Shown: positions 34,118-50,461 of the stretch, piece after piece
How the letters are laid out: every line of letters begins with the position of its first letter
Numbering within the stretch: position 1 is the first letter of the stretch
Source: Oleiharenicola sp.
Lineage (GTDB): Bacteria; Verrucomicrobiota; Verrucomicrobiia; Opitutales; Opitutaceae
DNA: 64,000 nt
NCBI GenBank assembly: GCA_025363455.1
Contig: JANYDW010000038.1
Location: forward strand, 62,001 to 126,000
Direction of reading: 5' to 3'
Position numbers and translations under genes: made by a program
Notes under the pieces: generated by a model
The model's input: the letters and a program-made list of their open reading frames with translations, nothing else
The model's database searches: none
Told to the model about the DNA's origin: nothing

Positions 34118-34144
34118 TGTAGGGCGGGATCGCCGATCCCGCCA
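34118..34144 (+). repeat. Half REPIN-like hairpin
   Basis: tGTAGGgcgggatcgccgat-cccgcc is a single GTAG half with an intact hairpin, related to the element at 2684. It starts 3 bp after the S9 peptidase stop. Confidence 0.6.
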
Positions 34145-34321: not shown

Positions 34322-34380
34322 TGTGGGAGCGACCTTGGTCGCGATTCGTTCACAAACATCGCGTGCAAGCACGCTCCCAC
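34322..34380. repeat. REPIN-like palindrome, GTGGGAGC-CTTG family
   Basis: tGTGGGagcgaccttggtcg-cga is answered by tcgcgtgcaagcacgctCCCAC. It is the reverse orientation of the copy at 49948 and lies just downstream of the RAYT gene. The two halves have stems CGAC/GTCG and CGTG/CACG around the same CTTG loop. Confidence 0.8.
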
Positions 34381-34393
34381 CCGCCAAGTCGAT

Positions 34394-34456
34394 GCGAGGC
34401 TAAGCGCGAGGCTAAGGGGTCGCGCGAGGCTAAGGGGTCGAGGCTAAGGGGTCGGG
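34394..34456 (+). repeat. Tandem 'gcgaggctaaggggtc' repeat
   Basis: The word gcgaggctaaggggtc occurs about four times in slightly varied spacing. The block runs into the last codons of the RAYT gene on the opposite strand. Confidence 0.65.
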
Positions 34457-35433
34457 TTGTGGGGTGTGGGGACAATGCCCAGCTGTCGAGCCAGTGCGGG
34501 ATTGCCTGAGCGACCCCAGACGGCGACCTTGCGTCCGATTTCATGGCGGTTGCCGAGGTATAAGTTTTTCCCGAGCCAGGGATTGGTCACTGTAGTGCGT
34601 GCCTTCAAAGCAGCGGCAATGGCCACCTTCCACTCAGCCGACTTACCGGCAGCTGCGAGATCGGCCGGAGTGCGGCGTAGGCGACGCAGCAACCTCAACA
34701 GTTCGGAGTGCCAATGTGATTCGTAGTCAGCGCGCATGTCCGAGAAATGCTGCGATTTTCCGGCCCGCAAGGTCCGGTTCTCCTCTAGGAGGCTGCGGGT
34801 GAAGTCGGCCGTGCCGAAGGCCCAGCCACGTGACATGCGGTCAAATTTCTGGCGTTTTTGCTCAGGTTGGTCCTCAGCCAGCCAGCCGAGATACTCGGCG
34901 TATTTACGGTGCCCAGCGGAGGAGTCGGTGAGGGCTCCGGCGTGGCGCAACGCGGGCCGGGGATCAAACCAGGCCGGACGCAGTTTGGGCTGGTGGATCC
35001 ATGCCACGCTGGCCCACGGGTACAATCCGAGGGTGTCTGCGGAACACAGCCCGGCGCGCACCGGGTTGAGGTGGATGTAGTGACAGACCGAGGCCAACGG
35101 ATCGCCGTCCTCGATTGCGATGCTTTTGAATCTCCCTTGGAAGAGATGACCATGCGCCTGACGGTAGTGATTGAACCGCATCGCGAAGGTGCACTGCAGC
35201 CAGTGCATGCCGGCGGCGAGGTTTGCCTGCGGGGTGGTGACGGCGAGGTGAAAGTGGTTGGACATGAGCGCCCACGCATGCAGGAGCCATCCGGTCCTTT
35301 GGCAGGCCTCGTCGAGGCAGTGGAGAAAGGCGCGTTTGGTGTCGGCCGCCGCAAACACAGGGCCGCGGTAGTTGCCGCGGTTGATGACATGGTAGGAGGC
35401 GTTTTCGGATTCGAGGCGAAGGGGGCGGGGCAT
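34444..35433 (-). CDS. REP-associated tyrosine transposase (RAYT, Y1 family)
   Basis: The 329-residue protein begins MPRPLRLESENASYHVINRG-NYRGPVF, the usual Y1 transposase start. It has the HUH metal-binding motif in SNHFHLAVTTP and the later YIHLNPVRAG where the catalytic Tyr is expected, plus FQGRFKSIAIEDGDPLASV-C. RAYTs nick single-stranded DNA at GTAG- or GTGG-tagged REP hairpins and are thought to spread REPIN elements. REPIN-like elements flank this gene on both sides (34322 and a half copy at 35634). The frame appears intact; its last codons run into a tandem repeat. Confidence 0.93.
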   Translation of the reverse strand: MPRPLRLESENASYHVINRGNYRGPVFAAADTKRAFLHCLDEACQRTGWLLHAWALMSNHFHLAVTTPQANLAAGMHWLQCTFAMRFNHYRQAHGHLFQGRFKSIAIEDGDPLASVCHYIHLNPVRAGLCSADTLGLYPWASVAWIHQPKLRPAWFDPRPALRHAGALTDSSAGHRKYAEYLGWLAEDQPEQKRQKFDRMSRGWAFGTADFTRSLLEENRTLRAGKSQHFSDMRADYESHWHSELLRLLRRLRRTPADLAAAGKSAEWKVAIAAALKARTTVTNPWLGKNLYLGNRHEIGRKVAVWGRSGNPALARQLGIVPTPHNPTP

Positions 35434-35633
35434 GGCGCCAGCGTGCGGCACAGGCGATCACCGGCGAGGCCCGGGCCGTAATTTATCCGTAATCAACACG
35501 GCGATCCCCACACCCCACAACCTGACCCCCTACGCTCGGCTTGTCCCCGCGGCCACGTTCTATCCAATTCAATTACATGATCCCGGCTCAGGCCGCGCGA
35601 CGACAAGGCAAATTGGGGCACGCCGCCGTTAGG

Positions 35634-35658
35634 CATCGCTTGCAAGCAAGCTCCTACA
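35634..35658 (-). repeat. Half REPIN-like hairpin, CTTG loop
   Basis: On the minus strand this reads tGTAGGagcttgcttgcaag-cga: the GTAG tag, stem CTTG/CAAG and loop CTTG. It is the fourth stem variant of the family at 43637, 49948 and 50107. It lies between RAYT and clpC; the rest of 35434-35702 has no gene. Confidence 0.7.
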
Positions 35659-43636: not shown

Positions 43637-43712
43637 TGTAGGAGCCTGCTTGCAGGCGATCCGGAACACCCGCCAACGGACCACGTTGTATCGCCTGCAA
43701 GCAGGCTCCTAC
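43637..43712. repeat. REPIN-like palindrome, GTAGGAGC-CTTG family
   Basis: tGTAGGagcctgcttgcagg-cga is answered by tcgcctgcaagcaggctCCTAC. Each half has stem CCTG/CAGG and loop CTTG. Nearly identical to 50107. It lies between ppaC and glnS. Confidence 0.88.
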
Positions 43713-49467: not shown

Positions 49468-49845
49468 ATGAACAAAAACAACCATCCCCACGAAGTCATC
49501 GTGACCGGCATCCACCTCGAACTCACCCCGTCGCTGAAAAGCTACGTGGCGGAGAAGGTGGATTGTTTGTTTCGTCACGAGGCCCATATCGTAGGGATCC
49601 GCATCGAGCTGGAATGTGACCGCCGCCACGATCATGCCCACAAGTTTGTCGCCAAGGCCCATGTCGAGGTTCGCGGCCCCAATATCAATTGCATCGCCGA
49701 GTCCGAGGAAATGCACAAATCCGTGGATCTGCTCGTGGACAAGATCGACCACGTCCTGCACAAGCGCCACGGCCAGCACAAGGGCAAGCGCAACCACCCA
49801 CACGCGATCGAATTCGCCGACGTCGAACTGCCCAAGGCCATCTGA
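49468..49845 (+). CDS. hpf: Ribosome hibernation promoting factor / RaiA-type protein
   Basis: The 125-residue protein binds the 30S subunit and puts ribosomes into a resting state. It has the HPF fold pattern VIVTGIHLELTPSLKSYVAE-KVDCLFRH, EVRGPNINCIAESEEMHKSV-DLLVDKIDHVLHKRH and a basic His/Lys-rich end. It is the short type without the C-terminal dimerisation domain of long HPF. An AGGAAAT-type ribosome-binding sequence precedes the ATG. A terminator follows. Confidence 0.92.
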   Translation: MNKNNHPHEVIVTGIHLELTPSLKSYVAEKVDCLFRHEAHIVGIRIELECDRRHDHAHKFVAKAHVEVRGPNINCIAESEEMHKSVDLLVDKIDHVLHKRHGQHKGKRNHPHAIEFADVELPKAI

Positions 49846-49871: not shown

Positions 49872-49897
49872 GGTCCGCCCTTCGGCGGGCCTTTTTT
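49872..49897 (+). terminator. Rho-independent terminator after hpf
   Basis: Stem ggtccgccc / ggcgggcc with a three-base loop is followed by six T residues, 27 bp after the hpf stop. Confidence 0.82.
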
Positions 49898-49947
49898 ATT
49901 CCCTGTGGGTCAAATACCCTAGAGCTTGCTCCGGCTTGGACTGGGCA

Positions 49948-50008
49948 TGTGGGAGCGTGCTTGCACGCGATGTTTGGTAAACGAATCGCGACCAAGGTCG
50001 CTCCCACA
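49948..50008. repeat. REPIN-like palindrome, GTGGGAGC-CTTG family
   Basis: tGTGGGagcgtgcttgcacg-cga is answered by tcgcgaccaaggtcgctCCCACa. Left stem CGTG/CACG, right stem CGAC/GTCG, same CTTG loop. Inverse copy of 34322. Confidence 0.85.
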
Positions 50009-50106
50009 AAACCAGGGGACTTGGGCGGAATGCCTCGGAGCTTGCCCCGAGGATCTTTACTCGTGGTGGGTCCAATGCCCGGAAGCTTGCTCCGGCTTGG
50101 TCGGGA

Positions 50107-50176
50107 TGTAGGAGCCTGCTTGCAGGCGATCCGGCTGGCGGCCCAACGCAGAATCGCCTGCAAGCAGGCTCCTACA
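50107..50176. repeat. REPIN-like palindrome, GTAGGAGC-CTTG family
   Basis: tGTAGGagcctgcttgcagg-cga is answered by tcgcctgcaagcaggctCCTACa. Stem CCTG/CAGG on both sides; nearly identical to 43637. Confidence 0.88.
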
Positions 50177-50277
50177 AAAAAACGAAGGGAATCAGAGGTC
50201 TGACGGGTTTGATCAAATGCCTCGGGGCTTGCCCCGAGGATCTTTACTTGGGGAGTCGGGCTCCCGTCCGACACTTC

Positions 50278-50334
50278 GTAGGGGCCGGTCCTTGAGCTGC
50301 CACGCCTGCTGGACCGAGCAAGCTCGGCCCCTAC
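50278..50334. repeat. REPIN-like palindrome, GTAGGGGCC type
   Basis: GTAGGGGccggtccttgagc is answered by ccgagcaagctcggCCCCTAC. The right half has the stem CCGAG/CTCGG around CAAG (CTTG on the other strand); the left half is worn. It lies ahead of hutI. Confidence 0.7.
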
Positions 50335-50461
50335 ATGATCCAACGCCGGGCGTGAGCCCGGCCCTCCCGCGATGCGGAATTACTCCGTGCAATCCTCGGT
50401 CAACTTGCTTGGAATCCCTCCCCCGTTCCGTGGCTTCCACGGCTCAACCCTAACCAATCCC

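Follow-up and report, generated by a model that had tools for sequence, protein, structure and literature searches.

CTTG hairpins in an Opitutaceae-like bacterium: REP elements and REPINs, two of which appear to lie within IS200/IS605-type units

The gap between an hpf-like gene and an amidohydrolase gene in the draft genome of an Opitutaceae-like bacterium (G000; 4.23 Mb, 83 contigs, 94.94% complete) contains a series of hairpins with a CTTG loop, whose stems differ from copy to copy and remain paired; gene context was surveyed for this gap. What kind of element these hairpins are, and why both arms of the stem change together, are the questions that we address here. The window, a stretch of 64,000 nucleotides (C57:62001-126000), has nine exact matches to the pattern GAG-N4-CTTG-N4-CGA in a search that did not require pairing (34327+, 34359-, 35636-, 43642+, 43691-, 49953+, 49986-, 50112+, 50154-). 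Allowing one mismatch raises the number of matches to 15; shuffled sequences give a mean of 6.28, and none of 100 reached 15. The original prediction of such hairpins is confirmed: the places it had named all carry the motif, one or two bases off, and the stem variants keep their pairing, with 4/4 stem pairs in 9/9 exact matches.

Our preferred explanation, which we hold at a probability of about 0.86 from sequence comparison, is that the CTTG hairpins belong to two nested layers of single-strand-DNA mobile elements, with two REPINs of the gap contained in IS200/IS605-type units. In the first layer, REPs consist of GTRGGA, a short palindrome and GAT, mostly arranged as REPINs. A RAYT (a Y1/HUH tyrosine transposase) would be expected to recognise the folded single strand by its unpaired GTRG head, stem and loop, and would then cut the REPIN and copy it to new places. 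Because the RAYT is expected to recognise the fold, stems should change in ways that preserve pairing, and RAYT lineages should have REP classes of their own. In the second layer, the two REPINs of 49899-50246 would lie inside non-autonomous IS200/IS605-type units with longer hairpins at their left and right ends (LE and RE). These units lie 3' of TTTA-like sites, and an IS200 TnpA acting in trans, not found in the draft, presumably moved them. Judging from their families, RAYT and TnpA would each bind the folded strand through their own hairpins, cut beside them and rejoin it, and the REPINs may have entered an IS200 relic and multiplied together with it.

By their layout the CTTG hairpins are REP elements, mostly in head-to-head pairs, that is, REPINs: a GTRG head is followed by two bases, a short stem with a short loop, and a GAT tail. 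Two marks of REP membership were found, a GT(A/G)G head adjoining a short palindrome and a high copy number, with 186 copies of GTRGGAG-N4-CTTG-N4-CGA genome-wide (95 and 91 on the two strands) and none of the reversed control. Among 56 unique REPs (28 loci and the window), 23 inverted pairs and 10 unpaired copies were counted. The GTRGGAG motif is present in 67 of 150 genomes drawn from the family. The family maximum, 478 copies, is found in G083, a genome absent from those with a RAYT match. Outside the gap, the window holds the following REPs:

34323-34380, unstranded: T3/T2 REPIN that retains no more than the inner flanks of a unit A (DNA search: C57:96316-96390, query 50-125)
35636-35657, minus strand: single REP with stem CTTG/CAAG (T5) (motif search)
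43638-43712, unstranded: free REPIN of two inverted T4 REPs, without IS200-type ends (motif search)

We sorted the copies by hand from the listings. All 46 GTGGGAG copies fall into 23 with stem CGAG/CTCG, 13 with CGAC/GTCG, seven with CGTG/CACG and three with one arm changed. Among the 100 listed of 148 GTAGG copies, 86 have CCTG/CAGG (three of them altered outside the stem), six CTTG/CAAG, two CGTG/CACG, four have one arm changed and two are unrelated. The stem variants of this genome thus amount to about six amplified types, and CTTG/CAAG differs from CCTG/CAGG by one stem pair. Since all seven GTGGGAG copies with CGTG/CACG have a CGAC/GTCG copy 36-37 nt away, these two stems are the two ends of one REPIN. 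The seven copies with a change on one arm (in the 46 GTGGGAG and the 100 of 148 GTAGG copies) are a matter of decay, not of compensation, a split that is partly one of definition, as a double change would be counted as another type. The original prediction had named descent from a few duplicated ancestral copies as the outcome that would speak against selection on the folded form, and within the genome this outcome is half realised, the variants being few amplified types with later one-arm changes. Independent evidence of covariation must come from other lineages.

The gap itself is organised as follows:

49468-49845, plus strand: hpf-like gene (S30AE) upstream of the gap (PF02482, 56.8 bits, cut-off 23.7)
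49872-49898, plus strand: left flank of unit A, made up of a terminator-like hairpin and a T-run whose last bases are TTTA (sequence)
49899-50059, plus strand: unit A, non-autonomous IS200-type, with a GTGGGAG REPIN core, ending in GATCTTTA (alignment)
49918-49934, plus strand: LE hairpin of unit A, with a decayed stem (sequence comparison)
49949-49971, plus strand: REP of unit A with stem CGTG/CACG (T2) (motif search)
49985-50007, minus strand: REP with stem CGAC/GTCG (T3), forming one heterodimeric REPIN with T2 (motif search)
50033-50052, plus strand: RE hairpin of unit A (sequence comparison)
50060-50246, plus strand: unit B, non-autonomous IS200-type, with a GTAGGAG REPIN core (alignment)
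50079-50095, plus strand: LE hairpin of unit B, imperfect (ccggaag-CTTG-ctccgg) (sequence)
50108-50130, plus strand: REP of unit B with stem CCTG/CAGG (T4) (motif search)
50153-50175, minus strand: REP with stem CCTG/CAGG, inverted partner of T4 in unit B (motif search)
50220-50239, plus strand: RE hairpin of unit B (ctcgggg-CTTG-ccccgag) (sequence comparison)
50255-50272, unstranded: palindrome GTCGGGCTCCCGTCCGAC of another repeat class (sequence)
50278-50334, unstranded: inverted pair headed GTAGGGGCC, another REP-like class (sequence)

Unit B follows unit A's terminal TTTA with no base in between. Compared with an IS200 copy in G071, unit A is identical at 45 of 49 aligned bases of the left end and 35 of 42 of the right end, and unit B at 39 of 49 and 36 of 42. 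In both units the REPIN appears to occupy the place of tnpA. The hairpins at 50080 and 50219 had originally been counted with the REPs; they are IS200-type ends and belong to a different element, so that two systems had been merged into one. That at 50080 is present as predicted, with an imperfect stem. The end of the gap (50255-50367) is crowded with palindromic repeats of other classes.

Such units are repeated across the genome. The sequence CTCGGNGCTTGCNCCGAG has 12 copies, and all eight that were fetched adjoin REPs. The units begin with TTC(C/G)CTGTGGGTCCAATACCCCG after TTTA-like bases and close with a hairpin and the same terminal sequence as unit A; seven copies of type A and 23 of type B were aligned, those of the window included. 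Among the loci fetched from this genome under set mismatch limits, which missed some copies (e.g., C5:142065), we found 20 distinct LE-RE units, of which 18 fit the strict REPIN pattern; in the other two, L102 and L109, the alignment reveals REPs that have been altered. Their left boundary is sharp: the four adjoining bases carry 1.25-1.71 bits and those beyond at most 0.28. Past the terminal TTTA on the right side, the information content is 0.78 and 0.68 bits at the first two bases and at most 0.46 further on. The left flank is exactly TTTA in 12 of the 20 units and one or two letters off in the others. TTTA stands at both unit ends, which makes a 4-bp target duplication possible; in the set of 20, 10 units differ from TTTA on a single side and no unit does so alike on both, but in a separate comparison L138 has TTCA on both sides. 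The LE hairpins pair in 102 of 119 cells, slightly better than shuffles, 124 of 5000 of which reach that value. The RE hairpins pair in 84 of 99 cells (0/5000 shuffles), a count that includes one unrelated match and reflects mainly two master forms. Selection on the fold of these outer hairpins is therefore less well supported than for the REPs.

Unit matches occur in at least 85 of 252 family genomes (E<=1e-5, with REPIN-only matches included and up to three places scored per genome), and of 20 such places chosen by eye, 15 again showed the right-end pattern. In G187 (locus L170), the same two ends enclose an open reading frame of 151 aa, an IS200/IS605 transposase by NF033573 (117.9 bits, cut-off 55) that matches the solved ISHp608 transposase and its relatives. 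Complete IS200 elements, in which tnpA lies between ends much like those of the units, were found in G187, G054, G071 (two), G198 and G195, the last being the most altered. Units A and B thus have both ends in common with an autonomous, tnpA-bearing element. They also resemble the IS200/IS605 family and its miniature derivatives, called palindrome-associated transposable elements (PATEs), in their subterminal LE and RE hairpins, in the lack of any terminal inverted repeats (TIRs) that we could see, in their short left target and in the NF033573 type of TnpA; they differ in that a REPIN stands in place of tnpA. A tnpA match (E<=1e-20) is present in 12 of 252 genomes, and none was obtained at this threshold in the 94.94% complete draft of G000. 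The unit behind hpf in G156 looks like an IS200 whose gene was replaced, because it retains CTGTCTTGATCA, the last tnpA codons with the stop. In G093, a type A unit lies inverted between hpf and a terminator-like hairpin (L123), apparently an independent insertion into the same gap.

One unit elsewhere in the genome, at C5:62830, has an empty counterpart: G160 lacks about 195 bases at this site, where the terminator-like hairpin is followed by TTTTTA and then the right flank. G113, which likewise has no REPIN unit there, carries a shorter segment in which LE- and RE-like remnants may be present. The core at this site is T4 in our genome and T2/T3 in the closest relative, G156, behind the same terminator; in G156 one contig holds the left flank and almost all of the unit and another the right flank, and the two, which both end inside the repeat, are presumed to join. 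In G093, too, this right flank is preceded by a unit whose core is T2/T3. Two histories would fit, an exchange of the core at this site or more than one use of the TTTA behind the terminator.

The units would differ in origin if they were not of IS200 type at all and blocks had instead spread by recombination, or through a RAYT acting on REPINs together with their flanks. Tandem REPIN clusters with flanking DNA have been described (PMC3116915), and no tnpA match was obtained in this draft, both of which suit such an account. We consider it unlikely in view of the match between the unit ends and those of complete IS200 elements in other genomes, the sharp boundaries and the empty site in G160. 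LE-RE units without a REPIN also speak against it: in G161, two of them (L168, L169) are identical between their ends and have different flanks, so that the chassis can multiply without a REPIN.

The contents of the IS200-type units vary further. By eye, we found REPIN-like cores of other classes between such ends: L180 (G043) has an inverted pair with a GTAGC head, and the pair in L178 (G139) resembles it. T4 REPINs are found within units and also on their own, the window copy at 43638 being of the free kind. A search with the gap DNA gave 167 candidates, and among the 40 scored there are at least nine T2/T3-like REPINs, seven of which keep at least one unit end. Both ends are present at C5:142065, C21, C42, C47:34414 and C57:111890, C47:18129 retains its left end, the ends at C55 are mixed, and C51 and C57:96316 (window 34323) have inner flanks only. 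Four further CGAC copies, outside the list of this search, lie in C2, C19, C20 and C65:57062.

Matches to PF01797 identify 11 Y1 transposase genes in this genome. Four long ones (L031-L034), including that of the window, have inverted ends with GGGGTC(A/G)G and are of the TIRYT kind; GGGGTCAG fits the GGGGWSAS given for TIRYT elements in PMC3733652. The window gene and its ends are:

34444-35451, minus strand: Y1 transposase of 335 aa, TIRYT kind, not a REP cognate (PF01797 search, terminal repeats)
34448-34472, plus strand: terminal inverted repeat of this gene (sequence)
35505-35530, minus strand: terminal inverted repeat of this gene, starting with GGGGGTCAGG on the minus strand (sequence)

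We considered this gene as the maker of the REPs and rejected it, since it has TIRs and its REP_Tyr_transpos score of 66.7 bits is under the cut-off of 80; it is neither carrier nor cognate of the REPs, and those near it are the partial unit A and the single T5. This gene copy is also flanked by tandem ggctaaggggtc repeats, and three named relatives of its protein, at 36-41% identity, come from Opitutaceae or Verrucomicrobia MAGs, which is the basis for calling the host Opitutaceae-like.

Six of the seven short Y1 genes have a class-specific palindrome on either side; the seventh, L035, is missing the N-terminal region (its match covers query residues 34-153) and has one palindrome, downstream, by eye. 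The gene recorded as L036/L045 (C75:56973-57485, protein P0002) scores 86.1 bits with NF047646 REP_Tyr_transpos (cut-off 80), matches 4ER8 at E 8.7e-05, contains the HUH motif MPDHVHF and has GTAGGAG REPs on both sides. Five further short RAYTs (L037-L041) each have a palindrome class of their own, e.g., GTAGGGCGGGATC..., TGTAGGTCGGGCTTTACGCCCGAC and GGTAGGGCGGGACCGCTGGGCCCGCC; that of L037 is also present in the window, near 34120. A T4 REPIN near L037 was considered as its cognate and rejected, as L037 has its own flanking palindromes. No Y1 gene of this genome was seen to be flanked on both sides by T1 or by the T2/T3 pair. T1 (GTGGGAGCGAGCTTGCTCGCGA) is identical to the first 22 of the 23 letters of the Pseudomonas REP class PF8 as tabulated in PMC3686654 (Table 1). 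There are 23 copies of these GTGGGAGCGAG REPs (e.g., C1:84880, C17:12181), and no T1-flanked RAYT was seen in this draft; G093, of the same genus, has a RAYT with T1-class REPs (L056). This class, GTGGGAG with CGAG stems, flanks RAYT genes in relatives only (L056, L062, L066) and none of the 11 Y1 genes here, despite these 23 copies. T1 may be represented here by orphan REPs, or its RAYT gene may lie in the missing part of the draft.

In the family, 104 of 150 genomes matched the RAYT search, and 30 RAYTs were returned as loci. REPs of the GTRGGAG frame lie within 200 bp of 15 of these 30 genes, in 15 genomes, and on both sides in 14 cases. A looser palindrome test finds both-side palindromes at 25 of the 30 loci, the other five showing them by eye; it also fires in 35 of 170 control windows, and we prefer the strict frame. 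Other RAYT loci bear other palindromes, e.g., GTAGGTCGGGC-TTTAT-GCCCGAC. The 60 REP-frame matches beside RAYTs reduce to 11 distinct haplotypes, in which 51 of 55 cells are Watson-Crick pairs and the other four are all G.T. Shuffles of these haplotypes have a mean of 36.7 paired cells and a maximum of 48, and none of 10,000 reached 51; the haplotypes are related by descent, so that this result is not to be read as a probability. Stem pairs 1 and 4 are invariant, and pairs 2 and 3 (three Watson-Crick types each) and the loop-closing pair (two types, C.G and T.A) vary with compensation. Selection on the folded form, as originally proposed, is therefore supported across RAYT-linked REPs and not by the in-genome copies, which are not independent.

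The loops of the 60 matches are CTTG (38), TTTA (9), CTCG (9), CTGG (3) and TTTG (1). The proposal that CTTG is a fixed recognition loop holds in part, as the outer C.G is swapped for T.A and the third base varies. The flanks of L036/L045 have CCTG and CTTG stems and TTTA, CTTG and CTCG loops, so that this RAYT is unlikely to be strict about stem pair 2 or the loop. In line with this, the T and A of a TTTA loop are thought in PMC8266576 to pair and so to count as stem.

In the RAYT tree, three genes with CGAG REPs form one clade (98/99) and two with CTCG another (99/99), and 13 genes with palindromes of the TCGGGC, TGGGGC, TCGGGG, GGGGC-TTTA or CGGC-TTTA kinds form a third (99/98). L072 (CCTG) groups with L073 (CGTG-like; 99/96), and most CCTG genes have no resolved position. 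In the resolved parts of the tree, REP class and RAYT clade go together, with L072 as the one exception. The covariation of the stems is most likely due to a single-strand-DNA transposase (Y1/HUH) that would read the fold.

A quite improbable alternative is that the hairpins act as RNA downstream of genes, as mRNA stabilisers, terminators or small RNAs, and that it is the RNA fold which is selected. The gap does lie behind hpf, several left flanks of units are T-runs after terminator-like hairpins, and all four non-Watson-Crick cells of the RAYT-linked haplotypes are G.T, a pairing also noted in REP stems in PMC3733652, which suggests that many REPs are transcribed. Against this, an Rfam scan of the window returned two tRNAs and no other RNA family, the terminator-like hairpin of hpf stands before the units, and in-genome copies of one type have one-arm changes. 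The unpaired GTRG head, the inverted pairing, the association with RAYTs and the pattern of classes by clade fit a transposase substrate. Least credible of all is that the stem changes reflect chance and the duplication of a few ancestral copies with no selection for pairing, which would suit the about six in-genome types and the later one-arm changes within a type, but not the three Watson-Crick types at pairs 2 and 3 and two at the loop-closing pair beside 15 RAYTs in 15 genomes, nor 51 paired cells of 55 against a shuffle mean of 36.7.

The first of the two mobile layers, the REPs, is already known from other bacteria. The Pseudomonas GTAG-1 REPs and REPINs (PMC3686654, PMC3116915, PMC3733652) are described with the same GTRGGA head, CTTG palindrome, GAT tail and head-to-head doublets, and likewise with classes that differ by complementary stem changes, T1 matching PF8 over 22 bases; here, in contrast, the host is Opitutaceae-like and two REPIN types lie in IS200-type units. 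Within the same phylum, Opitutus terrae has highly enriched GTAG repeats in several families, one of them mostly GTGG-headed, and we met no mention of an IS200-type carrier in its account in PMC3733652. The Marinomonas REPtron Mb of group 3 has a 5-bp palindrome two bases from GTAG and a TTTA loop, which recalls the CTTG/TTTA exchange seen here, but its host and stem differ, and cleavage was tested in Marinomonas (PMC8266576) whereas our case is built from sequence. According to PMC3733652, where REPtrons and TIRtrons are described, most REP families split into sub-families with alternative complementary stem residues, and RAYTs coevolve with their REPs (PMC2817692); compensatory stems are therefore a known property of a known kind of element. 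Two cases in PMC3733652 come nearest to the carrier units: in A. variabilis and others, dimers of REPs are nested in longer palindromes, and next to transposase genes of Pseudomonas, degenerate REP units are linked with other stem-loops. Partial coverage of the literature on REPs or REPINs with IS200, IS605 or MITE yielded no description of REPINs as IS200-type cargo, and REPINs as cargo of IS200-type miniature elements look like a new form of a familiar kind of element.

The RAYT on which REPINs are thought to depend is single-copy and unable to move itself (PMC3116915). Our tentative proposal, which we rate at close to even odds, is that the IS200-type miniature elements of the family provide a chassis with a cargo slot that REPINs of different classes fill time and again, so that REPINs would spread without their RAYT and cores would be exchanged between units. 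If true, the IS200-type ends would be a second engine for REPINs, the carrier units might account for REP types whose own genome lacks a RAYT for them, and a single DNA segment would unite the substrates of a domesticated transposase and of its still-mobile relative. In addition, the RAYT-linked REP set, with its many stems and few fixed positions, points to the bases that a RAYT likely reads.
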